DNA of 64,000 nucleotides. Origin: an uncultured Monoglobus sp. (lineage in GTDB: Bacteria; Bacillota; Clostridia; Monoglobales; Monoglobaceae). The notes below the pieces were generated by a model. It saw nothing but the letters and a program-made list of their open reading frames with translations, searched no databases and was not told the DNA's origin. The translations under genes and the position numbers were made by a program. The stretch spans positions 1 through 64,000 of the forward strand of contig CANPWW010000001.1 in assembly GCA_947585115.1 (NCBI GenBank), read 5' to 3'. Below, in pieces: positions 6,668 to 28,259 of the stretch (its first letter is position 1; each line of letters opens with the position of its first letter).

Positions 6668-7699
6668 TTACAACTCTTTCCAGCATTGCGGGTCGGCGGA
6701 GTAAAAGCTGCCGTTCGTCCCTTTGGCCACGGCGGGACAGCCGCGACACCACGCTTTCAGTTCGCATTTTCCGCATTTGATGAATTTATCATAGTTCCGA
6801 TATTGTTCTGTTTCGCATACCCACACATCGGCGAGCCTGTCCTCAAGCGCGTTGCCGACCTTGCTTTCCGCCACGCGTCGGCAGGTGTAAATATCGCCCG
6901 TCGGCAAAATCGTGATATGGCAGTTACCGCAGTTGCATCCGCCGTAAATCATGCCGTCCTTTGCCGTTTCGGGAATTTTAAACTCGCCGGTTTCGTATTC
7001 GTAGAGAGTCCAGAGATGATCTTTTTTGTTGAAGTAGGTCTTGCAGCCCGCGGCTTTGTATTCCTTGAATTTTTTATCGCATACCTTCAGCAGATTACGG
7101 TAATCCTGCGGTGACATATTCGTGTTTAGCTCGCCGCCGCTCGGAACGTATCGGGAAAAGGCGAATACGTTTACTCCCGCCGCAACCGCAGCGTCGATAA
7201 TTCCGGGCACTTCCGCCATGTTATCGGCCGAAACCGTAGTCATTACAACGCTGCGTATTCCCGCGCGGTTAATACAGCCGATTTTATCTATCGTGCAGTC
7301 AAACGAACCGGGTTTTCTGAACCAATCGTGGGTCTCGCGGAGCCCGTCAAGGGAAAGCTGATATTTCTCGCAGCCGTATGATTTTAATTTTCGGCATACA
7401 TTGTCGTCAAGATGAAACGGATTTCCCATAATGGTAAACGGAATGTCGTGCTCGCGTATCAGCTTTAACAGCCGCCAAAAGTCGGGGTGCAAAATCGGGT
7501 CGCCGCCGGTGATATAGAAATACGGCAGTCTGTCATACATTTCGCAGAAATCAAGACAGTTATAAAACGTGTCTCGCATCTGCTCCCACGTCATTGAAAC
7601 AAGCGGCTTATCGTCGCTGCCCGAAAATATATAGCAATGCTTGCAGCGTTGGTCGCATACGTCTGTGATGTGCCATTGAAAAGAAAAGTATTGTTTCAT
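6668..7699 (-). CDS. Radical SAM/SPASM peptide maturase, ACGX type
   Basis: 343-residue radical SAM enzyme. The SAM-binding cluster motif is C15-x3-C19-x2-C22 (CDQRCKHC) and the C-terminal SPASM region holds many Cys (about residues 255-340: GGCNCGNC, YTCRR, CGKCELKAWCRGCP, DPQCW) for auxiliary [4Fe-4S] clusters. SPASM enzymes of this kind modify ribosomal peptides, commonly by Cys thioether formation. The gene directly follows a small ACGX-repeat peptide gene, the arrangement recognised in databases as the ACGX system. ATG at 7699 has an AAAGGGG site. No separate RiPP recognition domain, protease or transporter was seen nearby. The chemical change made on the peptide is unknown. Confidence 0.9.
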   Translation of the reverse strand: MKQYFSFQWHITDVCDQRCKHCYIFSGSDDKPLVSMTWEQMRDTFYNCLDFCEMYDRLPYFYITGGDPILHPDFWRLLKLIREHDIPFTIMGNPFHLDDNVCRKLKSYGCEKYQLSLDGLRETHDWFRKPGSFDCTIDKIGCINRAGIRSVVMTTVSADNMAEVPGIIDAAVAAGVNVFAFSRYVPSGGELNTNMSPQDYRNLLKVCDKKFKEYKAAGCKTYFNKKDHLWTLYEYETGEFKIPETAKDGMIYGGCNCGNCHITILPTGDIYTCRRVAESKVGNALEDRLADVWVCETEQYRNYDKFIKCGKCELKAWCRGCPAVAKGTNGSFYSADPQCWKEL

Positions 7700-7748
7700 A
7701 TTTTTGCCCCTTTATATAATCGTTTTACCGAATAATAATCGAGATCTT

Positions 7749-7770
7749 CCGACGGGATCGCTCCCGTCGG
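7749..7770 (-). promoter_or_regulatory. Hairpin between precursor peptide and maturase genes
   Basis: Perfect 9-bp stem (CCGACGGGA / TCCCGTCGG) with a 4-base loop in the 93-base gap between the peptide gene and the radical SAM gene. No run of T follows on the minus strand, so it is more likely a partial attenuator or RNA-end stabiliser than a full terminator. Such hairpins are common after RiPP precursor genes, where they raise precursor over enzyme levels. Confidence 0.6.
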
Positions 7771-7792
7771 AGATGATTTAGGAACGAACAAA

Positions 7793-7978
7793 TTATTTGT
7801 CCGCCGCGCCGCAGGCGCTGCCGCAGGCCGCGGGCTTTTCGTCGGGCTTGTCCGCCGCGCCGCAGGCGCTGCCGCAGGCCGCCGGCTTCTCGTCGGGCTT
7901 ATCCGCCGCGCCGCAGGCGGCACCGCAGGCCGAGCCCGCCTTTTTGTCCGTCCAGTCCGAAAGATTTGAAAGAGCCAT
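7793..7978 (-). CDS. ACGX-repeat RiPP precursor peptide
   Basis: 61-residue peptide. A short leader (MALSNLSDWTDKKAGS) precedes a core of three Cys pairs in Ala-Cys-Gly-X context: ACGAACGAA, then two copies of a 17-residue unit DKPDEKPAACGSACGAA. Six Cys in total, no aromatic residue after the leader. At DNA level the unit is a 51-base tandem repeat, with two near-identical copies at 7801-7902 and a shorter divergent third. ATG at 7978 has a perfect AAGGAGGTCATGAC site. It is the first gene of the operon and matches the ACGX-repeat peptides found next to radical SAM/SPASM enzymes. A 95-residue reading frame in another frame over the same DNA is a shadow. Confidence 0.88.
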   Translation of the reverse strand: MALSNLSDWTDKKAGSACGAACGAADKPDEKPAACGSACGAADKPDEKPAACGSACGAADK

Positions 7979-8109
7979 GTCATGACCTCCTTATGTTTAT
8001 TCGGGTCACCCCGTGCTCATATTCTTGCACATATTTTCCTCCGGCGCAAGTACGCACATTTTTGTAACTTTTGCGTTTTTATGGGGTTTTTGGATAAAAA
8101 ATTTTTCTA

Positions 8110-9148: not shown

Positions 9149-9637
9149 TTATGCGTCCGCGTTTTCAAAACGACTCTTAATAACAGGGATTAAATCGTTC
9201 GGAACGAGCCCGTCAAGACATCCGCCGTACTTCGCGATTTCCTTAACGATGCTGGAGCTTAAAAACATGTAGTCCTGACTGGTGTGCAAAAACAAAGTCT
9301 CAAGCTCCGGGTTCAGCGTACGGTTGGTCAATGCCATCTGGAATTCATACTCGAAATCAGATACCGCTCTAATTCCCTTAATAATTATACTAGAATTAAT
9401 ATTTTTCATAAAATCCGCCAGCAGCCCGGAGAACGAACAGATCTCAACGTTGTCCATATCTTTCGTCACGCGTTTGAGCATTTCCACGCGCTCCTCAACC
9501 GAAAAGGACGGCTGTTTTGAGCTGTTTATAAGCACCGCCACGACAAGTCTGTCAAACAGGCGGGACGCTCTCTTTATAACGTCAAGATGTCCGTTGGTGC
9601 ATGGGTCAAAGCTGCCCGGATACACAGCAGTTTTCAT
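9149..9637 (-). CDS. coaD: Phosphopantetheine adenylyltransferase
   Basis: 162 residues, the normal length. It transfers AMP from ATP to 4'-phosphopantetheine, the penultimate step of coenzyme A synthesis. The nucleotidyltransferase signature [12 protein letters not shown] (residues 8-19) carries the T/H-x-G-H loop, and the C-terminal [17 protein letters not shown] segment matches the ISSS(x)R/K-like signature. ATG at 9637 is preceded by GAGGTGAG within the end of rsmD, four bases downstream of that gene's stop, so translation is coupled. rsmD-coaD adjacency is widespread in Firmicutes and supports the call. Confidence 0.97.
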
Positions 9638-9641: not shown

Positions 9642-10229
9642 TCACCTCTGCATAACCGTTATTATAGTCTTGCCATACCGCGCCTCTCTTGTGACATTGA
9701 AGCCGCACCGCGAAATTTCTTCTCCTCCGACCTCGGTCTCGGCCACGATCACGCCGCTTTCGCTAAGCAGGCCGAGCCTGCCGATCTCGCCGAGCGCTTT
9801 TGCGACATGCCCTTTGTTGTAGGGCGGGTCAAGGAATATTATGTCAAAACCGCGATTTGTGTCAAACCGGGTTCCGCCGGCTGTCACAGCGGTCACAGTT
9901 CCGTTTGCGAGGCGCTTAATCAGCGGATACGCGTCGGTCTTAAACAGAGCGGCCCCGTCAATCAGGCCCGAGCCGATGAGATTTGACTCAACGATTTTAT
10001 ATGACGACGGGTTTTGCTCAATGAACACGGCGCCTTCGGCTCCGCGGCTCAAGGCCTCGATCCCCATCGCCCCGCTGCCCGCGAACATGTCAAGCACAAA
10101 GCCGCAGGGCAGATGAGACTGAATTATATTAAAGACCGATTCCTTTACCCTGTCGGTTGTGGGACGGGTGCTGAGCCCGTCGGGGGCCTTTAATTTGTAT
10201 CCTCGTCTTTTGCCCGATATTATTCGCAA
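9642..10229 (-). CDS. rsmD: 16S rRNA (guanine966-N2)-methyltransferase
   Basis: 195 residues. It methylates G966 of 16S rRNA on the assembling 30S subunit using S-adenosylmethionine. The SAM-binding loop [13 protein letters not shown] and the catalytic motif FLDPPY are clear, and the N-terminus [15 protein letters not shown] is diagnostic. The start is TTG at 10229, six bases after a perfect GGAGG; an upstream in-frame ATG at 10292 would add 21 residues without conservation or ribosome-binding site. It opens the operon with coaD and has its own promoter 50 bases upstream. Confidence 0.95.
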
Positions 10230-10280
10230 AACAAGCCTCCAAACGAAAGAATTTTTCAAAATAATTACATTCACCTTATA

Positions 10281-10309
10281 TTTATATATCAAAATTGTAA
10301 ATTTGTCAA
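10281..10309 (-). promoter_or_regulatory. Predicted promoter of rsmD-coaD operon
   Basis: Minus strand TTGACA (10304-10309), 17-base spacer, TATAAA (10281-10286). It lies downstream of the terminator of the structured RNA, so the operon and RNA are separate units. Confidence 0.7.
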
Positions 10310-10400
10310 GGGTTTTAAATAAATTTGTAAAAATACAGCGATTTTAACAAATTATTTGTCTGCATAAATAAACCCCGCGATTGCCGTAGAATGACTAAAG

Positions 10401-10420
10401 TAAAAACCTGGAAACCAGGT
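10401..10420 (-). terminator. Terminator of the structured RNA
   Basis: Stem ACCTGG / CCAGGT with TTT loop, then TTTTTAC on the minus strand. Confidence 0.65.
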
Positions 10421-10568
10421 GGGATTTTCTCGGAAACTTTACAAGTCCACTGGACGACCCCGAAGGGTGTGAGGCATGTGCGCCGCCCCCGAAGATTAAA
10501 ATCCCTTATTAATTTTGTTGGTTTTACATTAATGTCATAATTACGCACAACGCAGGGAATTATTTTAT
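10401..10568 (-). ncRNA. Unassigned structured small RNA with own promoter and terminator
   Basis: About 168 nt. An enclosing stem GGGATTTT / AAAATCCC (10498-10505 with 10421-10428), extended by a CTTCGG / CCGAG helix, encloses three small hairpins: GGC-GCACAT-GCC, ACCC-TTCG-GGGT and GTCC-AGT-GGAC. It is closed by an intrinsic terminator ACCTGG-TTT-CCAGGT followed by TTTTT (10401-10420). The upstream promoter is strong. I do not see the signatures of 6S, SRP, tmRNA, RNase P or a riboswitch I know. The region 10230-10842 has no convincing protein gene; a 77-codon frame through it crosses the terminator. Confidence 0.55.
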
Positions 10569-10574
10569 GCTCAT

Positions 10575-10603
10575 ATTATATCATATAAAACATGAAATTA
10601 CAA
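10575..10603 (-). promoter_or_regulatory. Predicted promoter of the structured RNA
   Basis: Minus strand TTGTAA (10598-10603), 17-base spacer, perfect TATAAT (10575-10580); start expected near 10568. Confidence 0.6.
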
Positions 10604-10728
10604 CACATATTTATGTTCTTTTTATAACAATTTTAATTGATTATTGTTACAAACGTTTCTGTTTTGTTACAAGTTTTTTCGGGCGGTTTACAGGGAATTA
10701 ACAATTTCTTGTTTCCATATTTTTTGCA

Positions 10729-10756
10729 TTGAAATTATATTTTATTTAGGTATAAT
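10729..10756 (+). promoter_or_regulatory. Predicted promoter of mecA
   Basis: TTGAAA (10729-10734), 16-base spacer, TATAAT (10751-10756), giving a leader of about 80 bases. Confidence 0.55.
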
Positions 10757-10842
10757 TAAAATTGTGAGCGCATATTTTTGATTATAAATATATTGATAAG
10801 CTTTTATATTGATACGGTTTTCGAAAAATCAGGAGAAAAAAT

Positions 10843-11469
10843 ATGAGAATCGAAAAAATTAACGAAAATAAAATAAAGGTTCTGATCGATACCGACGAGG
10901 CTCGGGAATGGAACATCAGCGCCGGCAACATGGCGTCCGATTCACCCGCGGTTCAAGAGATGTTCAGAACGGCCATACGCCTGGCTCAGCAGGAGGTGCG
11001 GTTCAGCATCGACGGGGCCAAGCTGTTTGTTGAGGCTATTCCGGAGCATACCGACGGATTCGGGATGCTGATCACCAGAATTTTCAGCGACAAGGACCTA
11101 AACGCCGCTGTAGCCAACTGCTCCTACAGAGGCAAGATCAAAAAACGCTGTCTCTATCCGGAGAACGCGGAGAGCAAAATAAAAAGCTGCCGCATATTCC
11201 GCTTCGGTGATTTCGACAACGTGTGCCGCGCGGCCGAGGCGATACATAGAGATTTTTCGGGCGACAGCATGCTGTACAAGTGCGACGGCAGCTATTATAT
11301 GCTGCTCGCTCCCGACGATATAAGAATTATGCTGAGCGTTGAAAAAATAATGCTCGAGTTTTCAGACAAGCAGAACCGCACGCTCATATCACACGGCAGG
11401 CTCAACGAGCTGGGCGAGATCATGATAAGGCATGACGCGGTGAATGTGCTGGTTGAGTATTTTTCATAA
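10843..11469 (+). CDS. mecA: MecA-family adaptor protein
   Basis: 208 residues. MecA proteins bind substrates through their N-terminal part and deliver them to the ClpC ATPase through the C-terminal part. The N-terminus MRIEKINENKIKVLI and the C-terminal FRFGDFDNVCRAAEAI followed by LYKCDGSYYMLL match the family's two conserved blocks, linked by a variable region, here with LYPENAESK. ATG at 10843 follows an AGGAGA site. It stands alone between its own promoter and a terminator. In Bacillus MecA controls competence and sporulation factors; the substrate here is not known. Confidence 0.85.
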   Translation: MRIEKINENKIKVLIDTDEAREWNISAGNMASDSPAVQEMFRTAIRLAQQEVRFSIDGAKLFVEAIPEHTDGFGMLITRIFSDKDLNAAVANCSYRGKIKKRCLYPENAESKIKSCRIFRFGDFDNVCRAAEAIHRDFSGDSMLYKCDGSYYMLLAPDDIRIMLSVEKIMLEFSDKQNRTLISHGRLNELGEIMIRHDAVNVLVEYFS

Positions 11470-11703: not shown

Positions 11704-12975
11704 ATGAGTATGCTGTTTTCTTTGGACGATATAATGGAGTATATCGAGGATAACGATGTTAAGTTCATACGTTTGGTGTTTTTTGACATATTCGGAAATA
11801 TGAAAAATATTTCTATCTTCGCCTCCGAGCTGCCGAGGGCGCTGGAGTACGGCGTGACCTTTGACGCCTCGGAGATCAACGGATTTATGAATGTGGGCGA
11901 GAGCGATCTCATGCTGCGCCCCGACCCGACCACGGCCGAGATACTGCCGTGGCGCCCGCAGCACGCCAGAGTTCTCAGAATATTCTGCGACATATGCTAT
12001 CCCGACGGCAAGATGTTTGAGGGCGATTCGCGAAACATACTCAAAAAGTCGATAGATGATCTGGGAGAGAACGGGCTGTACTGCGAGATAGGGACCGAGT
12101 GCAAGTTCTATTTGTTCAATCTGGACGAGCGCGGCGAGATGACCGACATTCCCCACGACAACGGAACGTACTACGACGTGGCACCGTCCGACAGAGGCGA
12201 GAATATCCGCCGCGAGATCTGCCTGACACTTGAGGAAATGGGGATACAGCCCAGAAGCTCAAAGCACGCGGGCGGCCCCGGCCAGCACCAGATCGTGTAT
12301 AACCACGGCGCGCCCGTTGAGGCGGCTGACCATGTGATGACATTTAAAAATCTGGTTCGGACGATAGCCGATATGAACGGGCTGTACGCCTCGTTTATGC
12401 CCCGTCCCATTCCCGACAAGAGCGGAAACGGAATGCACGTTCATCTGTCTTTATATGAGAGCAAGACCGGAAAGAGCCTTATTGACATAGGCTGCGAGAC
12501 CGGACGCCGCTTCATCGCCGGAATCATGGCGCATATAAATGAGATAAGTCTGTTCCTGTGTCCGACCGTGAATTCATACAGCAGGCTGGGTCAGTTCGAG
12601 GCGCCGAAGTTTGTGACGTGGTCGCACCAGAACCGCCAGCAGCTTATGCGCATTCCCACAAATACGGTGGGAGAGAGCCGTCTTGAGCTGCGCTCGCCCG
12701 ACGGATGCTCCAATCCGTATCTGGTTATCGCGCTGATGATCTACGCGGGTATCGACGGCATCAAAAACGAGATGCGGCTCGCCGATCCCGTTAACGTTAC
12801 CTATAAGGAAGGCATCGACGGGCTCGTGCGTCTGCCGCGGAACCTTGAGGAGGCCGTGCGCTTTGCCGAAAACAGCGAGTTTGTGAAACGGGTGCTGCCG
12901 CGCAACATAACGGCGACATATATCAACGAAAAGCGCCGCGAATACGAAGAATATCTCAGATCCGAGAAAAAATAA
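11704..12975 (+). CDS. glnA: Glutamine synthetase, type I
   Basis: 423 residues; forms glutamine from glutamate, ammonia and ATP. The beta-grasp N-terminus (VKFIRLVFFDIFGNMKNI) and catalytic domain are complete: EIGTECKFYLF (metal-binding Glu), GPGQHQI, NGMHVHLS (active-site His), and ESRLELRSPDGCSNPYL near the C-terminus (ATP/phosphate-binding Arg). No adenylylation-type Tyr loop is evident and the protein is slightly shorter than the typical 440-residue GSI-alpha. ATG at 11704 lies after GAAAGGG; ATG two codons on is an alternative. The ANTAR regulator gene follows by 54 bases, a pairing known for clostridial glnA. Its leader contains a repeat hairpin that could act in attenuation. Confidence 0.95.
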   Translation: MSMLFSLDDIMEYIEDNDVKFIRLVFFDIFGNMKNISIFASELPRALEYGVTFDASEINGFMNVGESDLMLRPDPTTAEILPWRPQHARVLRIFCDICYPDGKMFEGDSRNILKKSIDDLGENGLYCEIGTECKFYLFNLDERGEMTDIPHDNGTYYDVAPSDRGENIRREICLTLEEMGIQPRSSKHAGGPGQHQIVYNHGAPVEAADHVMTFKNLVRTIADMNGLYASFMPRPIPDKSGNGMHVHLSLYESKTGKSLIDIGCETGRRFIAGIMAHINEISLFLCPTVNSYSRLGQFEAPKFVTWSHQNRQQLMRIPTNTVGESRLELRSPDGCSNPYLVIALMIYAGIDGIKNEMRLADPVNVTYKEGIDGLVRLPRNLEEAVRFAENSEFVKRVLPRNITATYINEKRREYEEYLRSEKK

Positions 12976-13029
12976 AAACGTGTTTGCGGCGGATCCGCAA
13001 ATTCATAACGGGAAAGAATGTGATAGCGA

Positions 13030-13599
13030 TTGAATGACAGGATTCTGATTGTTTCCGCGTCGGAAAAAAGCTCCGACGCGCTGGCGCGTATTCTGCGAAG
13101 ATACGCGATAAACAACATAGATTTTGCCTCGAGCGGAGCCGAGACAAGACGCGCGGTGCTGCGCGTCGGCTACGCGCTGATTATTATAAACGCGCCGCTC
13201 AAAGACGAGCAGGGAAACGACCTGGCGGCGGACATGATACGCGGCACAAGGTCGTCGGTGATATTGATCGCCAAAAACGATATCGCCGATGTGCTGGCCT
13301 CAAAGGTTGAGGGCGACGGGGTGTTCGTGGTCCCGAAGCCGCTTCAGCAGCGGCAGTTCTGGAGCGCGGTGAGGCTTGGGCTGGCGTTTTCGGCCCGGAT
13401 CGCCGAGATCGACAAAAAGATGGCGAAGCAGGAAAAAAAGTACGAGGAACTGCGGATAATATCAAGAGCCAAGTGCGTGCTGATAGAACGGGAGAGACTG
13501 ACCGAAAAAGAAGCCCACCGGTTTATAGAAAAGCAGGCTATGGACAAACGCGAAAGCCGAGCGAACATAGCCGCGGGAATTTTAAAGCGATATATTTAA
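13030..13599 (+). CDS. ANTAR-domain RNA-binding antiterminator with degenerate receiver
   Basis: 189 residues. Residues 1-120 have the fold pattern of a CheY receiver, but the phosphoacceptor Asp is Asn54 (ALIIINAPLKDEQG) and the acidic pocket after strand 1 is replaced by SAS, so phosphorylation is unlikely. After a coiled coil (EIDKKMAKQEKKYEELR), residues 135-188 form an ANTAR three-helix domain (RAKCVLIERERLTEKEAHRFIEKQAM), which binds paired RNA hairpins to prevent termination. The start is TTG at 13030, the only codon that keeps the conserved opening ILIVSAS. It follows glnA; relatives such as clostridial NitR regulate nitrogen genes. Likely targets in the window are the glnA and glutamate synthase leaders. 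Confidence 0.88.
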   Translation: MNDRILIVSASEKSSDALARILRRYAINNIDFASSGAETRRAVLRVGYALIIINAPLKDEQGNDLAADMIRGTRSSVILIAKNDIADVLASKVEGDGVFVVPKPLQQRQFWSAVRLGLAFSARIAEIDKKMAKQEKKYEELRIISRAKCVLIERERLTEKEAHRFIEKQAMDKRESRANIAAGILKRYI

Positions 13600-13794: not shown

Positions 13795-13877
13795 GGCACC
13801 ACGCGGCACTCAAACCAGTTTATAATAAAATTGTGCTGGGGAAAACGGCGCAAAATTATTATGAAAGGAGCATAATT

Positions 13878-14453
13878 ATGCTTGGTTTTGGAAACAGAAA
13901 ACAGAATCCGGAGGAGCGGGAGTATCCCGAGGCCGCGCGCGGCGGATATCCCGTTCAGCCGCAAGGGTACCCCGCGCAGGCTCAGGCTCAGCCGGGAGCG
14001 GCGCCCATGCAGGGAATGGCGCCCGGAATGATGCCCGGTGCTATGCAGTACGGTATGCCGATGGCTGCTCAGGGTATGCGCGGCGCGGCCGATCCGCGGC
14101 TTGAGGCGTACATAGCCAAAAGAACCGCGGAGATCGACGCGCAGGTCAGGGAGTTCTCGAAAAAGAATCCCGATTTTGACATCAGACGCGAGCTTCAGGA
14201 CCCCAAATTCTGCAACTATCTGTGGGGCAACGGGCTCAGCGTTGAGGACGCCTACTATCTTACCCACCGCGGCGAGGAGCAGGCTGAAAACAACCGCGGA
14301 AAGCCCGAGGAGCCCGAAAAGAGGATCTCGGAGAACGGGACATCAAAGCCCGGCGGCAGCGGCATGGTAAAAAAGAACCCCGAGGACATGAGCGACGAAG
14401 AGGTCGACGACATCATAAGACGCGTCCGCCGCGGCGAGAAGATCTCGTTTTAG
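13878..14453 (+). CDS. Putative capsid scaffold/assembly protein
   Basis: 191 residues. The first 80 residues are low-complexity Pro/Gln/Met/Gly-rich (QGYPAQAQAQPG, MAPGMMPGAM); residues 80-150 form a helical domain (LEAYIAKRTAEIDAQVREFS, then NPDFDIRRELQDPKF), and the tail is acidic and ends in DDIIRRVRRGEKI. A helical, charged, partly disordered protein directly before a major capsid gene is the usual place and style of a scaffold protein; this is inferred, not recognised by family. ATG at 13878 follows AAAGGAG; a start 15 codons earlier lacks a site. 43 bases separate it from the capsid gene. Confidence 0.55.
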   Translation: MLGFGNRKQNPEEREYPEAARGGYPVQPQGYPAQAQAQPGAAPMQGMAPGMMPGAMQYGMPMAAQGMRGAADPRLEAYIAKRTAEIDAQVREFSKKNPDFDIRRELQDPKFCNYLWGNGLSVEDAYYLTHRGEEQAENNRGKPEEPEKRISENGTSKPGGSGMVKKNPEDMSDEEVDDIIRRVRRGEKISF

Positions 14454-14496
14454 TCCGAGGCGCAAAAAACAAAAATTTTAAACGGAGGTATTTTTA

Positions 14497-15729
14497 ATGA
14501 GTATTAATTACAACACCCAGACAACGACCACAAACCGCGTGGGCAACAACGTTACCCCCGAGATGAAGGCGTACTACGACAGGCAGATGATCCGCTTCGC
14601 CTCTCCCAAGCTGGTTCACGCCCAGTTCGGCCAGAGCAAGCCGATCCCCAAGGGCTCCGGCAAGACCATCGAGTTCCGCCGCTTCAGCCCTCTGCCCAAG
14701 GCGATGAAGCCGCTGACCGAGGGCGTTACGCCCAAGGGCAACCAGCTGAACGTGACAACCGTTGAGTCAACGGTCGATCAGTACGGCGACTATGTTACCC
14801 TGTCGGATATGCTGACGCTTTCGGCCATCGACAACGTTATCGTCGAGACCCAGAACGTGCTGGGCGACCAGGCCGGAAGAACGCTCGACACGGTGATCCG
14901 CGAGAAGATCAACGCGGGCACCAACGTGCAGTACGGCGACGGCAAGGCCGACAGAAACGTGCTTGTGGGCGGACAGGCTAGCGGCAACGACTATCTCAGC
15001 GTGGCTGCGGTAAAGAGAGCGGTCGCCACGCTCAAGCGCAACAATGCTCAGCCCATCAAGGACGGCTGCTATGTGGCGATAATCCATCCCGATGTGGCGA
15101 ACGATCTGACAAACGATCCCGAATGGAAGGCCGTTAAGCAGAACGTTGACCCCAAGGACTGGTACAACGGCACGATCGGCAAGATCCACGGCGTTGTGTT
15201 TGTTGAGTCTACCGAGGCGAAAATTTTCAGAGCCGCGCCTCTGCGCAAGATGGAAAATATCATGATCGGCGATCCCGAGAGCCTGACCGTGGCGGCGGTT
15301 TCCGGCAAGGTCATCACGGTGTCCGAGGAGATCGCGACGAGCGACGCGTCCGCTCTGACGGGCAGGGCGATCCAGATAAACGGCTTTGACTACACGATCG
15401 CGTCCGCGTCGGCCGGCGAGCCCGGAGCGGCGAAGATCACGGTGACCGAGACCCTGAGCCCCACTGTGACGGCGGGCTCGATAATCTATCCCGCGGGCGC
15501 CGGCAAGGATGGCAGAGATATTTACTCCACGCTGTTCATCGGCCAGAACGCCTACGGCGTCACAAATATCACGGGCGGCGGTCTTGAGACAATCATCAAG
15601 CAGAAGGGCAGCGCCGGCACGGGCGACCCTCTCGACCAGAGAAGCACCGTTGGCTGGAAGGCCACTCAGACGGCGGAGATCCTTTCTCCCGAGTTCATGG
15701 TGAGAGTCGAGACCACGTGCAGCTACTAA
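14497..15729 (+). CDS. Major capsid protein, N4-gp56 family
   Basis: 410 residues. The sequence matches the HK97-fold major capsid proteins of the N4-gp56 family: the N-terminal NVTPEMKAYYDRQMIRFASPKLVHAQFGQSK-like start (given here in part), PLPKAMKPLTEGVTP, DQYGDYVTLSDML, and the C-terminal GWKATQTAEILSPEFMVRVE. ATG at 14497 has AACGGAGG. Gln/Tyr/Asn and Gly-rich composition suits a structural protein. It forms the centre of a plus-strand cassette that includes no visible terminase, portal, protease or integrase gene, so it may be a remnant, a satellite-like element or a domesticated particle. Confidence 0.9.
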   Translation: MSINYNTQTTTTNRVGNNVTPEMKAYYDRQMIRFASPKLVHAQFGQSKPIPKGSGKTIEFRRFSPLPKAMKPLTEGVTPKGNQLNVTTVESTVDQYGDYVTLSDMLTLSAIDNVIVETQNVLGDQAGRTLDTVIREKINAGTNVQYGDGKADRNVLVGGQASGNDYLSVAAVKRAVATLKRNNAQPIKDGCYVAIIHPDVANDLTNDPEWKAVKQNVDPKDWYNGTIGKIHGVVFVESTEAKIFRAAPLRKMENIMIGDPESLTVAAVSGKVITVSEEIATSDASALTGRAIQINGFDYTIASASAGEPGAAKITVTETLSPTVTAGSIIYPAGAGKDGRDIYSTLFIGQNAYGVTNITGGGLETIIKQKGSAGTGDPLDQRSTVGWKATQTAEILSPEFMVRVETTCSY

Positions 15730-15746
15730 ATCGGGAGGCGAAACAA

Positions 15747-15995
15747 ATGGCAATGACAAAAAAACAGAAATACGAGGCTGAGCTTGAGGCGTTCTATAAC
15801 GAGCCGGTGCCCCTTATGCTGGTGAAGGACAACTGGAAGAACAAGGACGATCTGACTGTGACGGTCAACGGCACCAACTACCAGATAAAGCGCGGCGAGA
15901 CAGTCACGGTTCCCCGAAAGGTAGCGCTGGCGGTGGAGCGCGCCCACAGGCAGGAGATCGCCGCCGAAAAATACGTGGACAGCCTGAAGGCGTAG
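15747..15995 (+). CDS. Small phage-type protein following the capsid gene
   Basis: 82 residues, basic and acidic mixed (MTKKQKYEAELEAFYNEPVP), with a short beta-type centre (DLTVTVNGTNYQIKRGETVTVPRKVA) that resembles small head or decoration proteins encoded after capsid genes. ATG at 15747 follows GGGAGGCG. It overlaps nothing and is 13 bases before the next gene. I do not recognise the family with certainty; position and size are the main evidence. Confidence 0.6.
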   Translation: MAMTKKQKYEAELEAFYNEPVPLMLVKDNWKNKDDLTVTVNGTNYQIKRGETVTVPRKVALAVERAHRQEIAAEKYVDSLKA

Positions 15996-16008
15996 GGCGG
16001 TGATGTGA

Positions 16009-16785
16009 TTGAAGCTTTTAAAAGCGATAGAGGCGGCTGACGCCCTCAGCCCCAACAGCTTTGAATTTGAGGAGAAGCTGGGCTGGTGCGGCGAGGTGTC
16101 GCTGTCCCTGCGCCGCCACGTCAAAAAATATTATGACATCATCGAGACTGTTGTGACCTGCCGCGAGGAGCTGGAGCTGCCCGAGGATATCTCGATAGAC
16201 AACATAGAGGCGGCCTATCTCGGAGGCAGACCGCTGACAAAGGCGGATCTCAGGAGCCTGCCGTATCTGGCGGGCGCCGACCTCCGCCGCAGGTTCGGCC
16301 TGACCTTCGGCTCGCCCAAGCTGCTCAAGCTCATTTATCTCACAACTCCGGGAGAGGTGCGGGATATCTGCGTCGAGGGCGAGTTCAACATAAGTGAGAG
16401 CGTGATCGAGGGCTGGATGCTGCCCTTTGAGCAGGGCGACGAGATCATCTGCGAGATGCCCGATGATCCGGAGTTTGAGCCCGCGCGCACCTACGTCTAT
16501 GAAAACGACGGCGAAAGGGTGCGTCTGACCGATGATATCTTCATTCCCGAGACGGGCGCCAGGCTTGTGATAAAGCGCGTGATAAACGATGAGACCGAGG
16601 CGGAAGCCCCCTATGACCGCATGTACATCGAATATCTGCTGGCGAAGATCGCTCTGTATCAGCACGACTACGACACATACTCGAGCCACATGATACAGTA
16701 CAACAACATCTACGATGAGTACAAAAGGGACTACAAAACGCGGAACCCGCTGAACGATTTGGCGCGTTTCAAAAATTACTGGTAG
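16009..16785 (+). CDS. Putative head-tail adaptor-like virion protein
   Basis: 258 residues starting at TTG 16009, with GGTGAT upstream. The N-terminal two thirds are mixed; the C-terminal part (YDRMYIEYLLAKIALYQHD, then HMIQYNNIYDEYKRDYK) is helical and typical of head-completion or adaptor proteins that hold several Tyr-rich helices. I cannot name the family with certainty. It lies between the small post-capsid protein and the propeller-like protein (11-base gap), consistent with a role in linking the capsid to the neck. Confidence 0.55.
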   Translation: MKLLKAIEAADALSPNSFEFEEKLGWCGEVSLSLRRHVKKYYDIIETVVTCREELELPEDISIDNIEAAYLGGRPLTKADLRSLPYLAGADLRRRFGLTFGSPKLLKLIYLTTPGEVRDICVEGEFNISESVIEGWMLPFEQGDEIICEMPDDPEFEPARTYVYENDGERVRLTDDIFIPETGARLVIKRVINDETEAEAPYDRMYIEYLLAKIALYQHDYDTYSSHMIQYNNIYDEYKRDYKTRNPLNDLARFKNYW

Positions 16786-16796
16786 GAGGCGGAAAT

Positions 16797-18488
16797 ATGT
16801 ATATGCCGATTGCGGCTCAAAAGAGCAAAAACAAAAAGGTCGATATCCTGAGCTTTTTCGGATACGACCAAAGAGAAAAGATCGACGACAGGCAGCTGGC
16901 GGAAATGCTCAACATGTCCTCCGACGAGGCGCCCTGTCTGGCGCCTCGAAAGCCCAGACGGCATATCGCCTCGCAGAAGGGCATAACCGCTCTGGCTCTT
17001 CCGGAATATGACCCCGGCGGTCTTGACTCGTTCACGGGCGTCGCGGACGGAAGCTTTTACTACAAGGGCAAACGCGTTGACAATATCGCGCTGAGCAAGG
17101 GCGAAAAGTCGATCGTGGATTTCGGCGGAAACATCTGCATTTTTCCCGACAAGGTGTACTACCGTTATCTGCCCGACCCCGAGGACGGGCAGATCAAAAG
17201 CGAGCTCAGGCCGATGGGCAAAAGCATGACGGTGATAAACGCCTCGTTTTACTCCTACTACGACGAGATAAGCGGCAGATACAGAGCGAGGATCAGCCGG
17301 GACGCCAGCGCGCGGTTCGATCTGTTCTTCAAGCCGGGCGACAGCCTTGTGATCTCCGGCTGCTCCAAGACGCAAAACAACACGCGCGTGATTGACAGCA
17401 AAAAAGACACTGTCTCGGATGAGAGCATCGTCAGCGCGATCGTCAAGGAGGCGGGCATAAGCGATCTGGACCTGCTGCTTTATAACAAAAAGGGCGGCTA
17501 CGCTTTTTTTGAAAACGGACACGAGAGCGCGGAGGTCAAGATCGAGGCCTATATTCCCGATATCGCTTGCGCCTGCGTGCACAACAACCGCCTGTTCGGG
17601 GCCTCGGAAAGCGGCGAGTATATTTTCGCCTCAAAGCTGGGCGACTGCTTTAACTTCTCGTCGTTCCGCGGCCTTGCCGACGACAGCTGGTTCGCCGAGA
17701 TCGGCACGCCCGGCGCCTTTACCGGAATTGTCAGCTACAGGACCTCGGTCGTGGCGTTCAAGCGCGACTATATCCACCATGTTTACGGCGATTCGCCGAC
17801 CAATTTTTCGGTGCCGAAGCAGACGCTGAGCGGCGCTCTTGACGGAAAGAGCGTCGCCGAGGTCGGCGGCGTTCTCTACTACATGGCGGCGGACGGGTTT
17901 TACGAGTATACAGGCGGCGAGCCCGAGAGGATAAGCCGCCCGATCAAGACCTTGTTCGCGTCCTGCAAGAGCGGCACCGACGGCAGGCGTTACTACGCCT
18001 GCGCTGCGGACAAGAGCGGCAAAACGTCGCTGCTGGTGTATGATCCCGATATGGGCGTCTGGCACAGGGAGGACGACACGAAATTCGTTGATTTTGTCCG
18101 CCTGGGCGAGAGGCTGTATGGCGCGACCGAAACCGACATGTACCTGCTGGGAGACGAGGAAGCGGACGAGATAATAAGATGGTGCGTGGTATCCAAAAAA
18201 TTCACGCTTGACGATTTCGATTTCAAGAGCGTGAACGCCGTCTATATCCGTCTGGAATCCGAGTCAGACACCAAGGTCACGGTAAGTTTCGCGGCCGACG
18301 ATGAGGATTTCACCGCCCGGGGTGAGATCAAAGGCGAAAAGGGCTTTTCGGTACATCGTATACCGATAAGGCTCAAGAAATGCGACAGCTTCCGCATCAT
18401 GCTGGAGGGCGAGGGAAAAGCGGTCGTCCACGATATAGAAATGATAACCTACACAGGAGGTAAAACGAATGTCGAAGACATCAGGTAG
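16797..18488 (+). CDS. Propeller-like phage structural protein
   Basis: 563 residues. The central part shows repeated beta-strand units with short motifs such as NNRLFGASESGEYIFASKLGD, AEVGGVLYYMAADGFYEYTGGE and ERLYGATETDMYLLGDE, the pattern of a beta-propeller seen in podovirus stabilisation or tail-hub proteins (P22 gp10 type). The C-terminal 80 residues look like a separate beta-sandwich. ATG at 16797 follows AGGAGGCGG. It overlaps the next gene by 20 bases, so the cassette is one operon. Structural role is inferred from the fold pattern and neighbours. Confidence 0.6.
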   Translation: MYMPIAAQKSKNKKVDILSFFGYDQREKIDDRQLAEMLNMSSDEAPCLAPRKPRRHIASQKGITALALPEYDPGGLDSFTGVADGSFYYKGKRVDNIALSKGEKSIVDFGGNICIFPDKVYYRYLPDPEDGQIKSELRPMGKSMTVINASFYSYYDEISGRYRARISRDASARFDLFFKPGDSLVISGCSKTQNNTRVIDSKKDTVSDESIVSAIVKEAGISDLDLLLYNKKGGYAFFENGHESAEVKIEAYIPDIACACVHNNRLFGASESGEYIFASKLGDCFNFSSFRGLADDSWFAEIGTPGAFTGIVSYRTSVVAFKRDYIHHVYGDSPTNFSVPKQTLSGALDGKSVAEVGGVLYYMAADGFYEYTGGEPERISRPIKTLFASCKSGTDGRRYYACAADKSGKTSLLVYDPDMGVWHREDDTKFVDFVRLGERLYGATETDMYLLGDEEADEIIRWCVVSKKFTLDDFDFKSVNAVYIRLESESDTKVTVSFAADDEDFTARGEIKGEKGFSVHRIPIRLKKCDSFRIMLEGEGKAVVHDIEMITYTGGKTNVEDIR

Positions 18489-19722
18489 AACTAAAACCAA
18501 TCAGGTCAAGGTCGAGGTCCCGCGGCGTCCCGACGGCATGGTCGGTGTCCGCGCCACTCTGCGCAACATGGGGATCGACAACAGCCTGATAGGCTACAAC
18601 GAGGCGAACAAAACGGTCACATTGGGCGGCAGAGAGCTGATGAGGCCGCAGTATATAAACGAGCAGGCGGGAATTTCTTTCTCGATGCCCGCGGATATAC
18701 AGCGCAGCGTGGCCCAATTTTACTCAAACACGAGCAATCCGGTCGTCAGGGTCTCGGACGCCTACAGCGGCTACGCGGGCAGATACGGCCTGTCCGCCGA
18801 CGCGCTGGGCTACTCCAACGGAGTTGTCACGATCGGCGGAATACCGCTTGACACGCTTTATATAGACGACGACGGCAAGGCATGGGCATTTCAAAACGAT
18901 GTGCGGTCGGCGGTTGACGATTACGTTAACTCGATCGGCGCGGTATCGCCGAACGAGCTGCTTGAGCAGTACAACGATATGTACCTGCCGCGGATCGAAA
19001 GTCTCAGTAATTCGAACATGAACCGAAAGGAATTTTCGTATGATCCCGCGGCCGACCCGGTGTACGGAGCCTACCGCGACCAATATATGCTCAATGCCGG
19101 CCGCGCTGCCGAGGATACGATGGCGGCGTATTCCGCCATGACCGGAGGATATTCAAACTCGGCGGCGGTGACTGCGGCGGGGCTGGCGCAGCAGTATTAT
19201 ATGAGCCAGCTTTCGGGAATGATACCCGAGCTTGCGCGGCAGGCGTATGAGAGGTACTCGGACGGACTGAGCCGCGACGCGGAACTGCTTGATAACATGA
19301 TCGGGCTTTACGACACGGTATGGAGCAACGCGTACGCCGCGAACAACAAGACGGTAAGCAACGCGAATTCCTCATTGTCGAGCAACGCCGAGAGAGACCA
19401 AGACGCTTTCGAGCGCCGCTGGGCGGAGGCGATGAACTCCCAGGACTACAACTGGAACGAGCTTTTGAATAACCAGAAGTACAACTGGACCGAGAGACAG
19501 AACAGTCAGGACTATAGCTGGACCGACGTGCTGAACGGTCAGAAATCGCAGTCTAACATGCTGGGGCTCGAAAACGCCGCTAACGAGAATATTATGCAGG
19601 GGATCTACATGGAATATTATAACGACATGCTCCGCGCGCAGCTGGAGGGCGACCGCCTCAACAACCGCCTGACGCAGGAGCGCATAAACCAATTGATCCT
19701 TCAGAACATGCTCGGCATGTAA
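18469..19722 (+). CDS. Internal-virion/tail-type protein with two stalk-like repeats
   Basis: 417 residues. The N-terminus has two copies of a motif known from copper-amine-oxidase-N-like stalk domains and phage structural proteins: VRATLRNMGIDNSLIGY..TVTLGGREL and AGRYGLSADALGYSNGVVTIGGIPL (quoted in parts). The middle is helical and Ala/Tyr/Ser-rich (AYSAMTGGYSNSAAVTAAGLA), and residues 315-365 carry three repeats of the form (N/S)SQDYNW or NQKYNW, each with a Trp. It ends in a long amphipathic helix. GGAGG inside the preceding gene drives the ATG at 18469. It may be an ejected or tail-tube protein. Last gene of the capsid cassette. Confidence 0.55.
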   Translation: MSKTSGRTKTNQVKVEVPRRPDGMVGVRATLRNMGIDNSLIGYNEANKTVTLGGRELMRPQYINEQAGISFSMPADIQRSVAQFYSNTSNPVVRVSDAYSGYAGRYGLSADALGYSNGVVTIGGIPLDTLYIDDDGKAWAFQNDVRSAVDDYVNSIGAVSPNELLEQYNDMYLPRIESLSNSNMNRKEFSYDPAADPVYGAYRDQYMLNAGRAAEDTMAAYSAMTGGYSNSAAVTAAGLAQQYYMSQLSGMIPELARQAYERYSDGLSRDAELLDNMIGLYDTVWSNAYAANNKTVSNANSSLSSNAERDQDAFERRWAEAMNSQDYNWNELLNNQKYNWTERQNSQDYSWTDVLNGQKSQSNMLGLENAANENIMQGIYMEYYNDMLRAQLEGDRLNNRLTQERINQLILQNMLGM

Positions 19723-19732
19723 AGCGCTCATA

Positions 19733-19768
19733 AAAACGCTTCCGAATCATAATTCGGAGGCGTTTTTT
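19733..19768 (+). terminator. Terminator of the capsid cassette
   Basis: 15-bp stem (19733-19747 with 19752-19766, one G-T pair), CATA loop and T6 run. Confidence 0.9.
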
Positions 19769-19779
19769 GAATTAAATTA

Positions 19780-19808
19780 TTGACACTTTTCGAGGACGCT
19801 GTTATAAT
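19780..19808 (+). promoter_or_regulatory. Consensus promoter of the LytTR two-component operon
   Basis: Perfect TTGACA (19780-19785), 17-base spacer, perfect TATAAT (19803-19808), 12 bases after the previous terminator. Confidence 0.85.
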
Positions 19809-19854
19809 TTAATATCATAGCTTTTAGGAAAGCGCTTATCAAAGGGTGAGACAT

Positions 19855-20583
19855 GTGCGTGTTGCGATTTGTGACGACGAGAATGTTTGGGTGAACAGGA
19901 TAGAGGAACATCTGATCAGATTCAAGAAGTCTCACAAGGATATCGAATGGGAGGTATTCTATTCGGGCGAGCAGCTTGTTGAGCATTATTCCCGCGGGGA
20001 AAGACTTTTTGATATTCTGATACTTGATATCGAGCTTAAAGAGCTGTCGGGTATCGAGACCGCTTTAAAGATACGCGAGGCGGACAAAAAAGCCGCCATT
20101 TTTTTCATGACATCTCACACGAAATATGTTTATGACTGTTTTAAGCCCGCGCCCGCGAATTTTTGGGTCAAGCCTGTCGAGTATGAAGTTTTGCGCGATG
20201 ATTTTGAGGAAGTTATCCGAAAGTCGGCCGACATGAAAAAAGAGCTGATTTTCAAAAGCCGCGGCGAGTACAAAAAGATCCCGCGCGGAAGCGTGAATTA
20301 TATCACAAGCAGCGCGAAAAAGGTGCTGATCCATACCGAAGGCGGGGATTTTGAAATATACGGCACGCTGAAGGGCATTTCTGAGCGGCTCGGGCCCCGC
20401 GGCTTTTCGTCTCCTCATAAGTCATACTTTGTTAACCTTGACAAGGTGGAGACCTTTAACACAAAAGAAGTGATATTGAGCGGAGGGGAGCATATACCCG
20501 TCAGCAAGTCAAGGCGGCAGCAGTTCAAAAAGGATTTTCTTGAGTATGTGAGCGGAGATAATTATGATATATACGGCGATTGA
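19855..20583 (+). CDS. LytTR-type response regulator (AgrA-like)
   Basis: 242 residues from GTG 19855, which follows AAAGGGTGA; a GTG three codons upstream lies inside that site. The receiver domain (1-125) has the acidic pair D7/D8 and phosphoacceptor D58 (LILDIELKELSG). The C-terminal LytTR DNA-binding domain (about 140-238) has the typical strands (IPRGSVNYITSSAKKVLIH and FSSPHKSYFVNLDKVE). Such regulators bind imperfect direct repeats upstream of genes for toxins, peptides or extracellular factors. The histidine kinase gene follows with a 20-base overlap. No agrB or agrD-like gene is nearby, so the signal is not obvious. Confidence 0.92.
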   Translation: MRVAICDDENVWVNRIEEHLIRFKKSHKDIEWEVFYSGEQLVEHYSRGERLFDILILDIELKELSGIETALKIREADKKAAIFFMTSHTKYVYDCFKPAPANFWVKPVEYEVLRDDFEEVIRKSADMKKELIFKSRGEYKKIPRGSVNYITSSAKKVLIHTEGGDFEIYGTLKGISERLGPRGFSSPHKSYFVNLDKVETFNTKEVILSGGEHIPVSKSRRQQFKKDFLEYVSGDNYDIYGD

Positions 20584-21844
20584 CCTGATCACATTGGTGT
20601 TTGAGATAATAGTTACATATATGTTTTTTGACGCGGTGCTTGATTCGCGCAGGGGCGGCGTTTTGGCGCGCGCGGCGGTCGGCGCGGCATACTTCGTCCT
20701 GTCCTGGATATATAATGTTTATATCGAGTCGTTTGTTTTGTCGTTTGTCATTATGCTGCTTTTGACGTTTATGTGCACCGCGGTGTACAAAGACAGCGCG
20801 CTGAAAAAATTATTGATGTCGCTGCTTTATATGCTCTTTATGGCGGTCTCCAATTTTGTTTTTATTTTGGCGGGACTGGCGTTCGGGATCCCAATTGATG
20901 AAATGTTAAGAGAAAAAAGCATGTACAATATCATGGGCCTGGTTATTGTTATGATCCTGATGACTATTATGGTTAAAGCCGCGGGACTGTTTTTTAACAG
21001 AAACCGCGCGAAAGTCAGCGTGAGTTATTGGATATTGCTTCTCTCTATCCCTGTTGTAAATATTATTTTTATTCTGCATTACACCCGATATCTCTACAGC
21101 CTCAACGCGGAGTTTTCGTATTCTCTTGTTATACTGACGGTCTCAGCGATGTATTCGACCCTGCTTGTGTTTTATCTTTTCGATAAGCTGACGGCGCTGC
21201 TCTCGGAGCGCGACGCGCTGAGCGAGCAGGTGGGCGGACAGAAGCGTCGGAACGTTGAAATTGACAAAAAAGAGGAACATATTATGTCGGTCAGACATGA
21301 TATAATAAACCATATGCGGGTCATTCAATCGCTGATACGGCGCGGCGAGACGGAAGCGGCGGATCGGTACATAGACGAGCTGGATCTTGACTTCGATGGC
21401 GCCGACGGGCTGATCGACACCGGAAATACGGCGATAGATATTTTAGTCAGCGGAAAAAAGAGCGCCGCGCGGCGGCTCGGTATAGATTTTCGCGAGAAAA
21501 TAATCATTCCCGAAAATCTGAAAATAAGCAATGTTGACGCGGTGATACTTCTGGGCAACCTGCTGGACAACGCCGTTGAGGGCTGCGAAAGAGCCGCCGC
21601 GGCGGAAAAGCGGATAAAGCTGACGCTGAAATACAGAAACAGCTATCTGCTCTGCGTCGTTGAAAACACGTCGGATCCGGTCAAAGTCGGGCGCGGCTTT
21701 TTAAAAACGTCAAAGGCGGACGCGGACTCTCACGGTATCGGCCTGAGAAATATAAAGCGAATCGTGAACAAATACAACGGAGAGTCGGTCCAAAAATATA
21801 AAAACGGAGTTTTTATATCCGAAATTATGATTTTTATTGATTAA
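20564..21844 (+). CDS. Sensor histidine kinase, AgrC-type GHKL family
   Basis: 426 residues. The N-terminal 210 residues form about six to seven membrane helices (e.g. IESFVLSFVIMLLLTFMCTA). After a short coiled coil comes the H-box SVRHDIINHMRVIQSL with the phospho-accepting His, and a GHKL ATPase domain with N-box LLGNLLDNAVEGC and G-box DSHGIGLRNIKRIV. The ATG is embedded in the response regulator gene (20-base overlap), so both are made together. The multi-helix sensor is like peptide-pheromone or lantibiotic sensors (AgrC, ComD), but the ligand here is unknown. Confidence 0.93.
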   Translation: MIYTAIDLITLVFEIIVTYMFFDAVLDSRRGGVLARAAVGAAYFVLSWIYNVYIESFVLSFVIMLLLTFMCTAVYKDSALKKLLMSLLYMLFMAVSNFVFILAGLAFGIPIDEMLREKSMYNIMGLVIVMILMTIMVKAAGLFFNRNRAKVSVSYWILLLSIPVVNIIFILHYTRYLYSLNAEFSYSLVILTVSAMYSTLLVFYLFDKLTALLSERDALSEQVGGQKRRNVEIDKKEEHIMSVRHDIINHMRVIQSLIRRGETEAADRYIDELDLDFDGADGLIDTGNTAIDILVSGKKSAARRLGIDFREKIIIPENLKISNVDAVILLGNLLDNAVEGCERAAAAEKRIKLTLKYRNSYLLCVVENTSDPVKVGRGFLKTSKADADSHGIGLRNIKRIVNKYNGESVQKYKNGVFISEIMIFID

Positions 21845-21928
21845 TTTTTGCTTGATTTGCGCGATCGGTCTATTTTTCCCGAAAAACAGCCCAGTTTTAC
21901 CGTGTAGAGATTTTTTGCGCGATTTTTG

Positions 21929-21937
21929 TGTTATAAT
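21929..21937 (+). promoter_or_regulatory. Extended -10 element upstream of candidate small RNA
   Basis: TGTTATAAT, an extended -10 (TG-N-TATAAT), with no good -35. It would start transcription around 21944. Confidence 0.45.
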
Positions 21938-21943
21938 ATGATC

Positions 21944-22034
21944 AGCGGACGCGGGCGGGTGCGGCGGCCGACTTGGTGAGTTTTATTAATAAAACCCTTA
22001 GAAAGACCCGAGCCGCGCGGCTCGGGTTTTTCCC
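21944..22034 (+). ncRNA. Candidate small RNA between histidine kinase and cyclophilin
   Basis: About 90 nt from the extended -10 to a strong terminator. It contains the palindrome GTTTTATTAATAAAAC. No open frame of note. Alternatively the terminator simply ends the kinase transcript. Confidence 0.35.
22006..22032. terminator. Intrinsic terminator, usable on both strands
   Basis: 9-bp GC-rich stem ACCCGAGCC - GCGC - GGCTCGGGT followed by T5 on plus, and by TCTTTCT on minus; lies between converging genes. Confidence 0.85.
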
Positions 22035-22048
22035 TTCAAATTACTGTA

Positions 22049-22711
22049 TTATTCCGAAATAACCTCGGCTTTTTCGATCACTATCGGAGTTTGGGGCATT
22101 CCCTGAGAGTCTCTGGGAACATCGAGAAATCCGTCAACGACCTCCATGCCCTCGGTCACCTGTCCGAACACGGCGTAGTTGCCGTCGAGGTTCGGCAGAT
22201 CGTCATAGCAGATATAGAACTGGCTGGACGCCGAATCGGGAGCCTGCGAGCGCGCCATCGCCACGCTGCCGCGCAGGTGCGGAAGTGTGTTTTGCTCAAA
22301 GCCGTTTGAGTAGAACTCGCCTTTGATCGTTTTGTCGCTGCCGCCCGTGCCGTTGCCGTCGGGGTCGCCGCCCTGCGCCACAAACGCGTCGATCACGCGG
22401 TGGAAGGTCAGGCCGTCATAAAAACCGCTTTTTACAAGGCTCAGGAAGTTCTCGACCGTCTCGGGCGCGTACTCGGGCGCGCATACTATGGTGAAGGTTC
22501 CGCCGTCGCTCATGGTGAACTTAACGGTCGGGCCGTCATCGGGGACCTTGCCGTCAAACTCAAAGGCCTCGCCCTCGGTCTTTGGCGCGCTTTCGGTTTT
22601 TGAGCCGCTTGATTTTGACGAGCTCTGCGAGCCGCAGGCGGTCAGCGCCGACAACGCCAGAGCGAGCGCCGCGATCAGACATAGCAGTTTTAAAAATTTT
22701 GTGTGTTTCAT
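22049..22711 (-). CDS. Peptidyl-prolyl cis-trans isomerase, cyclophilin-type lipoprotein
   Basis: 220 residues. A signal peptide with lipobox LTAC (Cys26) directs it to the outer face of the membrane, followed by a Ser/Lys-rich linker and a cyclophilin domain (about 60-220). The active-site motif FHRVIDAFVAQGGDPDG and the SQFYICYDDLPNLDGNYAVFG block are intact, so it should speed prolyl isomerisation of exported proteins. ATG at 22711 follows AGGAGG; the in-frame ATG at 22747 adds 12 non-conserved residues. It is a single gene read towards the kinase terminator. Confidence 0.95.
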   Translation of the reverse strand: MKHTKFLKLLCLIAALALALSALTACGSQSSSKSSGSKTESAPKTEGEAFEFDGKVPDDGPTVKFTMSDGGTFTIVCAPEYAPETVENFLSLVKSGFYDGLTFHRVIDAFVAQGGDPDGNGTGGSDKTIKGEFYSNGFEQNTLPHLRGSVAMARSQAPDSASSQFYICYDDLPNLDGNYAVFGQVTEGMEVVDGFLDVPRDSQGMPQTPIVIEKAEVISE

Positions 22712-22776
22712 TTGGATTCCTCCTGTATTAAAAAATATTTGATTCATTTTGCAAAAAGGTTGTTATATGTCACCGA

Positions 22777-22804
22777 GCGGGCGGATGATATCCGCCTCTA
22801 CAGG
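22777..22804. repeat. Dispersed repeat family A, copy 1
   Basis: GCGGGCGGATGATATCCGCCTCTACAGG: palindromic core GGCGGAT-N-ATCCGCC flanked by CTAC. Lies in the 388-base gap between the cyclophilin gene and the glutamate synthase operon. Confidence 0.8.
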
Positions 22805-22938
22805 ATCGGGATACGTCAGTATATTTTGCTATTTGGCTGTGATATATATTTTACATAAAATACGGCATGATGTCAAGGTCGGAGACGGTTTTACAAAAAA
22901 GCCGCGTATTTCGGCGGCTGTTTTGTATAATTTTTTTG

Positions 22939-22967
22939 TTGACTTTTTTCTCATACAGTGGTATACT
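22939..22967 (+). promoter_or_regulatory. Promoter of the glutamate synthase operon
   Basis: TTGACT (22939-22944), 17-base spacer and TATACT (22962-22967), placing the transcript start near 22974. Confidence 0.75.
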
Positions 22968-22971
22968 GTAT
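22953..22971. promoter_or_regulatory. Inverted repeat over the -10 box, candidate operator
   Basis: ATACAGT - GGTAT - ACTGTAT, seven-base perfect arms surrounding and covering the -10 element; a bound protein would block the polymerase. Confidence 0.5.
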
Positions 22972-22982
22972 AAACCGAACAA

Positions 22983-23024
22983 AGGCGTTCGTCTGCTCAA
23001 TGAGCGGCGAACGCCTGTTTTTTT
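22983..23024 (+). terminator. Leader terminator/attenuator before glutamate synthase
   Basis: Stem AGGCGTTCG-(T)-CTGCTC / GAGCGG-CGAACGCCT with AAT loop, then GTTTTTTT. It begins only about 10 bases after the predicted transcript start and lies 80 bases before the first gene, so read-through must be regulated or partial. Confidence 0.8.
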
Positions 23025-23099
23025 GCTCGGAATACGGGCGTCGGGAGATTATTTTAGTTCAAATATCCCCCGATCGCTATGTTGGAAGGAGAAAGAGCT

Positions 23100-25726: not shown

Positions 25727-25741
25727 GGAGGGAATGCCGAA

Positions 25742-26179
25742 ATGAAAAGAATTTATGTTAATGAGGAATGGTGCCTCGGCTGCCATTTGTGTGAGTACCA
25801 ATGCGCTTTTGCGAACTCCGGAATGGACGATATGGTCAAGGCCTTAAAGGGCAAGACCATCCATCCGAGGATACAGGTCGAGGGCGACAACAAGATAAGC
25901 TTCGCGGTCAACTGCCGCCACTGCTCCGACGCCCGCTGCGTCAAGGGCTGCATTTCGGGCGCCCTGTCCCGCGACAAGGACGGAGTCGTGGTGATAGACA
26001 CCGACAAGTGCGTGGGCTGTTTCACCTGCATACTGTCCTGTCCCTACGGCGCGATAATGCCGTCGAGCGATCATTCGGTCGTGCAGAAGTGCCAGCTTTG
26101 CATGGACAACGCGTCGGGAGAACCGGCCTGCGTCAAGGGCTGCCCCAACAGAGCGATAGTATATGAGGAAAGGATTTAG
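25742..26179 (+). CDS. 4Fe-4S ferredoxin-type electron-transfer subunit
   Basis: 145 residues with four Cys clusters in the order CLGCHLCEYQC, CRHCSDARCVKGC, CVGCFTCILSC and CQLCMD...CVKGC, that is up to four [4Fe-4S] sites as in HycB/DMSO-reductase B-type proteins. It probably carries electrons between the FAD subunit and the synthase subunit of the split glutamate synthase. ATG at 25742 follows AAGGAGG. The gene is in the operon with 15- and 9-base spacings to its neighbours. Confidence 0.92.
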   Translation: MKRIYVNEEWCLGCHLCEYQCAFANSGMDDMVKALKGKTIHPRIQVEGDNKISFAVNCRHCSDARCVKGCISGALSRDKDGVVVIDTDKCVGCFTCILSCPYGAIMPSSDHSVVQKCQLCMDNASGEPACVKGCPNRAIVYEERI

Positions 26180-26188
26180 GGTGATATT

Positions 26189-28152: not shown

Positions 28153-28176
28153 CGTCGCGTCACGCCTCTTGGCTCG

Positions 28177-28258
28177 TTCCGACGCAAGCGTCGGAAGCTT
28201 CGCCTTGCCGGCGGACGCTCCTCTTTCCCACAAAGCGCACTCCGTTGGCGCTTTGCGG
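28177..28258. repeat. Palindromes downstream of the glutamate synthase operon
   Basis: TTCCGACGC-AA-GCGTCGGAA (28177-28196) followed by an imperfect stem CAAAGCGC ... GCGCTTTG. GC-rich, uncoded; possibly terminators or decayed repeats. Confidence 0.5.
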
Positions 28259-28259
28259 G

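Follow-up and report, generated by a model that had tools for sequence, protein, structure and literature searches.

A 6S (SsrS) RNA gene upstream of rsmD-coaD in an uncultured Monoglobus sp.

The RNA encoded upstream of rsmD was assigned, with a probability of about 98%, to a canonical 6S (SsrS) RNA gene on the minus strand of the window (the whole stretch of 64,000 nt analyzed here), and it is in this sense an ordinary and already explained RNA. Well known among small RNAs, 6S RNA imitates an open promoter and holds back RNA polymerase once bacterial growth stops. Judged from sequence, the identity as 6S rests on a full-length Rfam match together with the structure, the template of the product RNA (pRNA), and the conservation of the gene. 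The same four points overturn the preliminary description of this DNA, in which the RNA was left unassigned and was said to lack the signatures of 6S.

All 4227 Rfam families were scanned against the whole 64-kb window, and 6S RNA was the sole match above threshold. RF00013 (6S) was matched over its full length (model positions 1-187) from 10561 to 10368 on the minus strand, with 82.2 bits (E = 1.1e-14) compared to a gathering score of 46.4 bits. A score of 82 bits is moderate, and the best members of the class reached a higher value of 110 bits. Some of the helix sequence departs from the RF00013 consensus, but no structural part is missing, and the locus resembles the family in matching the full model, folding as a rod with a central bubble, conserving the pRNA template, and being present as one copy with a promoter of its own. 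The preliminary description had proposed an Infernal scan of Rfam in which a significant match would name the RNA; by that criterion, the question of identity is closed. The other Rfam families appearing in 10150-10850 (SNORA33, pntA, CRISPR-DR27, and MIR821) were sub-threshold and chance-like and were rejected. ARAGORN found no tRNA or tmRNA within the window.

A genome search showed 6S as a single copy in its own genome. No second 6S copy or 6S-2 was detected in this assembly, which is about 90% complete, and the genome differs in this respect from the B. subtilis 6S-1 group. Within the family, one 6S was found in each of 36 of the 38 genomes, with every one of the nine genera and each of the 15 high-quality genomes represented. 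The class sample contained 6S in 124 of 148 genomes, with 117 above the curated cut-off. The locus is an ordinary one: a Clostridia genome would be expected to carry 6S, and the gene is picked up by a standard Rfam scan.

The 6S promoter is located at 10603-10575 on the minus strand and consists of a -35 TTGTAA (10603-10598), a 17-nt spacer, and an extended -10 TG-n-TATAAT (10580-10575). With 10 of 12 matches and the TG before the -10, its motifs are those of a housekeeping-type promoter, and the TTGTAA-N17-TATAAT element described earlier was confirmed as a sequence match. The TTGTA...TATAAT arrangement recurs in loci of the same genus; in more distant relatives, the promoter matches were weak and no better than expected in AT-rich sequence. 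Promoter spacing places the putative start site at about 10568. The transcript containing the RF00013 match (10561-10368) would probably extend from about 10568 to about 10364, giving a full molecule of about 205 nt in place of the earlier boundaries of about 168 nt. Beyond the closing stem, most relatives have a T-rich tract, which here begins at 10372. Transcription probably ends in this tract, which may be used as a terminator; the 3' end is not fixed by any classical terminator.

Behind the promoter, a structured multi-hairpin RNA is present as previously described, with its stem and hairpins in the sequence. The full unit folded at -68.9 kcal/mol (z = -5.3), and 0 of 200 shuffles were as good. 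The plus-strand reading of the interval 10401-10603 folded at chance level (z = -0.45) and was rejected. A rod with a closing stem, a central bubble, and an apical arm was recovered in the MFE fold, in the consensus fold, and by covariation against two controls. On the minus strand, the closing stem pairs the 5' strand CCCUGCGUUGUGCGUA (10557-10542) with the 3' strand UACGGCAAUCGCGGGG (10388-10373), and an A/U-rich extension lies beyond it in the window and in close relatives. This stem, helix 1, contains 21 pairs, 8 of which changed on both sides among the homologues. The apical arm (10505-10421, helices 3-7) extends from a GGG/CCC base up to the terminal loops; its helix 4 was paired in 95.8% of cells, with 6 of 9 pairs changed on both sides. 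The eight-pair stem that had been taken to enclose the whole domain, GGGAUUUU/AAAAUCCC (10505-10498 with 10428-10421, minus strand), does exist, but it forms the base of the apical arm, and the outer position belongs to the closing stem at 10557-10542/10388-10373. Across the family, only the first three pairs of the eight-pair stem are invariant, and the whole helix was paired in 69% of cells.

For the comparison, 30 homologues were aligned with a mean column identity of 75%. Because they were found with the Rfam model, the homologue number is not independent of that model; the window's own Rfam match stands independently. RNAalifold returned the 6S shape from the 30 homologues, with compensated changes in 13 of 46 pairs. 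When the structure derived from the window was applied to the homologues, 85.4% of cells paired, and 26 of 69 pairs had changed on both sides. The covariation score was 0.203, compared to 0.110 ± 0.006 in shuffled alignments (0 of 500 shuffles reached 0.203) and 0.05-0.09 when the partner strand was slid by 1-3 columns; since the shuffle control leaves relatedness in and the tested structure was derived from one of the aligned sequences, these numbers support the structure and do not prove it. Covariance analysis had been proposed in the preliminary description; the covariation across the 30 homologues supports the closing stem, the apical arm, and the 3'-central-bubble hairpin.

This hairpin, ACCUGG-UUU-CCAGGU (10420-10406, minus strand), had been interpreted as the intrinsic terminator of an unassigned small RNA of about 168 nt ending near 10401. 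The stretch ACCTGG-TTT-CCAGGT-TTTTA (10420 down to about 10401) indeed passes a terminator pattern, including a T-rich tail. However, the Rfam match to 6S continues for more than 30 nt beyond the hairpin and includes covarying closing-stem pairs. The U-run after the hairpin is the 3' strand of helix P2, where UUUUAC is paired to the GUAAAA of the pRNA template; neither segment varies. Truncation at the hairpin worsened the fold z from -5.3 to -2.0, and the resulting 168-nt unit was modestly better than shuffles, 5 of 200 of which folded as well. The hairpin itself was present in the MFE and consensus folds, was paired in 100% of cells, and was invariant in the homologues except for the loop and one compensated pair. 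This loop-closing pair is G-C in 19, C-G in 8, and U-A in 2 sequences, so that it has switched from G-C in 10 of 29 distinct sequences. Such compensation, with pairing in every sequence, indicates that the hairpin has been kept as a hairpin. The conserved, covarying RNA beyond 10401 argues strongly against a transcript ending in the T-run; the terminator reading of 10420-10406 was rejected, as this RNA probably runs on past the hairpin to about 10364, and a separate 168-nt RNA appears extremely improbable.

A 3'-central-bubble hairpin has been described for B. subtilis 6S-1 RNA (PMC8876501) and is included in the Firmicutes 6S consensus structures (PMC8414754). It is a feature shared by the present 6S RNA with B. 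subtilis 6S-1 (BsrA) and the 6S of lactic acid bacteria (PMC8876501, PMC12005410, PMC8414754). The 6S RNA was missed in the earlier reading because this internal hairpin was read as a terminator; cutting there removed the 3' strand UACGGCAAUCGCGGGG of the closing stem and hid the 6S shape. The assignment has little weight as a discovery. It still carries a warning: a conserved hairpin inside an RNA can pass for a terminator when U's follow it, and a famous RNA then seems new.

The first gene downstream of 6S is rsmD (16S rRNA G966 methyltransferase; 9642-10229, minus strand; TIGR00095, 148.7 bits, cut-off 117.5), the probable TTG start codon of which lies near 10229, as suggested by an upstream GGAGG. 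It is followed by coaD (pantetheine-phosphate adenylyltransferase; 9149-9637, minus strand; TIGR01510, 200.1 bits, cut-off 103.3). The divergent upstream neighbor encodes a MecA-family adaptor (10843-11469, plus strand; PF05389, 106.1 bits). In 27 of the 30 loci, the gene immediately downstream of 6S, and on its strand, is rsmD; coaD is usually next, and a mecA-like gene is often upstream. This arrangement would suit a cis-acting leader of rsmD-coaD, either a riboswitch or an attenuator, with the hairpin as a switchable terminator. However, a separate promoter-like site for rsmD is found between the RNA and the gene (10309-10281, minus strand), with TTGACA at 10309-10304, N17, and TATAAA at 10286-10281, and 22 of 30 relatives have a TTGACA site downstream of their 6S. 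No Rfam riboswitch matched the RNA. Its form is also retained in locus L015, which has rsmD in another place, on the opposite side and strand, and in L025; no rsmD was found in the flank of L025 or L028. With a separate promoter and these synteny exceptions, the leader was rejected and deserves almost no credence. The separate rsmD promoter noted previously holds as a promoter-like sequence, and because of it the 6S RNA is probably free-standing, as had been proposed, as far as sequence can tell.

A literature search for 6S beside rsmD returned no paper with both terms. In lactic acid bacteria, the 6S neighborhood is conserved at the family level as a rule (PMC8414754), and family-level conservation is shared here. 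The neighbors differ, being rsmD-coaD and mecA here and rarA/uspA in lactic acid bacteria. The nearest named records by CoaD came from uncultured gut Clostridia. Candidatus Roslinia caecavium, which is assigned to Clostridia incertae sedis, shared 78% identity, and uncultured Ruminococcus sp. RUG11189 shared 67%. The family-wide 6S-rsmD-coaD neighborhood can aid the annotation of related metagenome bins.

The 14-nt pRNA template AAUGUAAAACCAAC (10530-10517, minus strand) comprises a strand of P2 and the 5' central bubble. Together with the next A, it was invariant in 30 of 30 homologues across the genera sampled, and in the Rfam alignment it falls where pRNA synthesis is known to start in the 6S family, the exact start in E. 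coli being U44. The predicted pRNA, read on the plus strand from 10517, is 5'-GUUGGUUUUACAUU, a precise and testable prediction. Two hallmarks are reported for pRNAs, a GG occupying positions 4/5 or 5/6 and an A directly upstream in the 6S RNA (PMC8414754); both are seen here, the GG being at 4/5. The B. subtilis 6S-1 pRNA is 5'-GUUCGGUCAAAACUA, and its first three letters, GUU, are shared with the predicted pRNA (PMC12005410). The GUU start, the GG at 4-6, and the upstream A are common to the present RNA and the 6S RNAs of B. subtilis and lactic acid bacteria. Among class-wide loci, ACCAAC or ACCGAC before GGG recurs in many.

The 6S gene would be transcribed leftward from its housekeeping-type promoter, starting near 10568 and running for about 205 nt. 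The RNA would fold into a rod in which the long closing stem leads through a central bubble, with its 3'-side hairpin, to the apical arm. Like 6S of the Bacillus type, this RNA would act as an open-promoter mimic that sequesters the sigma-A RNA polymerase holoenzyme as growth slows. When nutrients return, the polymerase would copy the 5' bubble from the C at 10517 into pRNA 5'-GUUGGUUUUACAUU, and this synthesis would unwind helix P2 and release the polymerase. Polymerase binding, pRNA synthesis, and growth-phase regulation should apply here by analogy with the 6S family (PMC8876501, PMC12005410). The 3'-bubble hairpin, with six pairs stacked directly on P2, is present in 30 of 30 sequences with only the loop-closing pair compensated, and the 14-nt template is frozen across the genera sampled; that the hairpin is unusually fixed and the release step somewhat unlike that of B. 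subtilis 6S-1 is conceivable but unlikely.

Several other features were observed in the window. An ACGX-system RiPP pair occupies 6668-7983 on the minus strand, with a radical SAM/SPASM maturase (TIGR04340, 591 bits, cut-off 400) and an ACGX-repeat precursor peptide at 7793-7978 (TIGR04341, 58 bits, cut-off 28), together with a 51-bp tandem repeat (7797-7932). The ACGX system has already been named, and most of its models are of the "hypothetical equivalog" type. At 11704-13599 on the plus strand, a glutamine synthetase gene precedes one for an ANTAR-domain response regulator, and this combination suggests that nitrogen is controlled through an RNA-binding antiterminator.

A virus-like gene block, possibly a prophage or its remnant, extends over about 13833-29300 on the plus strand. 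It includes an N4-gp56 family major capsid protein (14497-15729; TIGR04387, 275 bits), an internal-virion-protein-like ORF (16797-18488), and several large neighbors with no or weak PHROG matches. A DNA-helicase-like protein at 39433-41490 (plus strand) matched the uncharacterized phage family phrog_34613 very strongly (547 bits). The plus strand at 44989-47754 encodes an S-layer-homology protein (921 aa) in which an 18-bp repeat occurs about 57 times. Finally, 48224-60028 (plus strand) encodes a giant protein of 3934 aa with a repeat stretch at 58907-59286, in which Pfam recognizes SLH domains only, and recA is the next gene.
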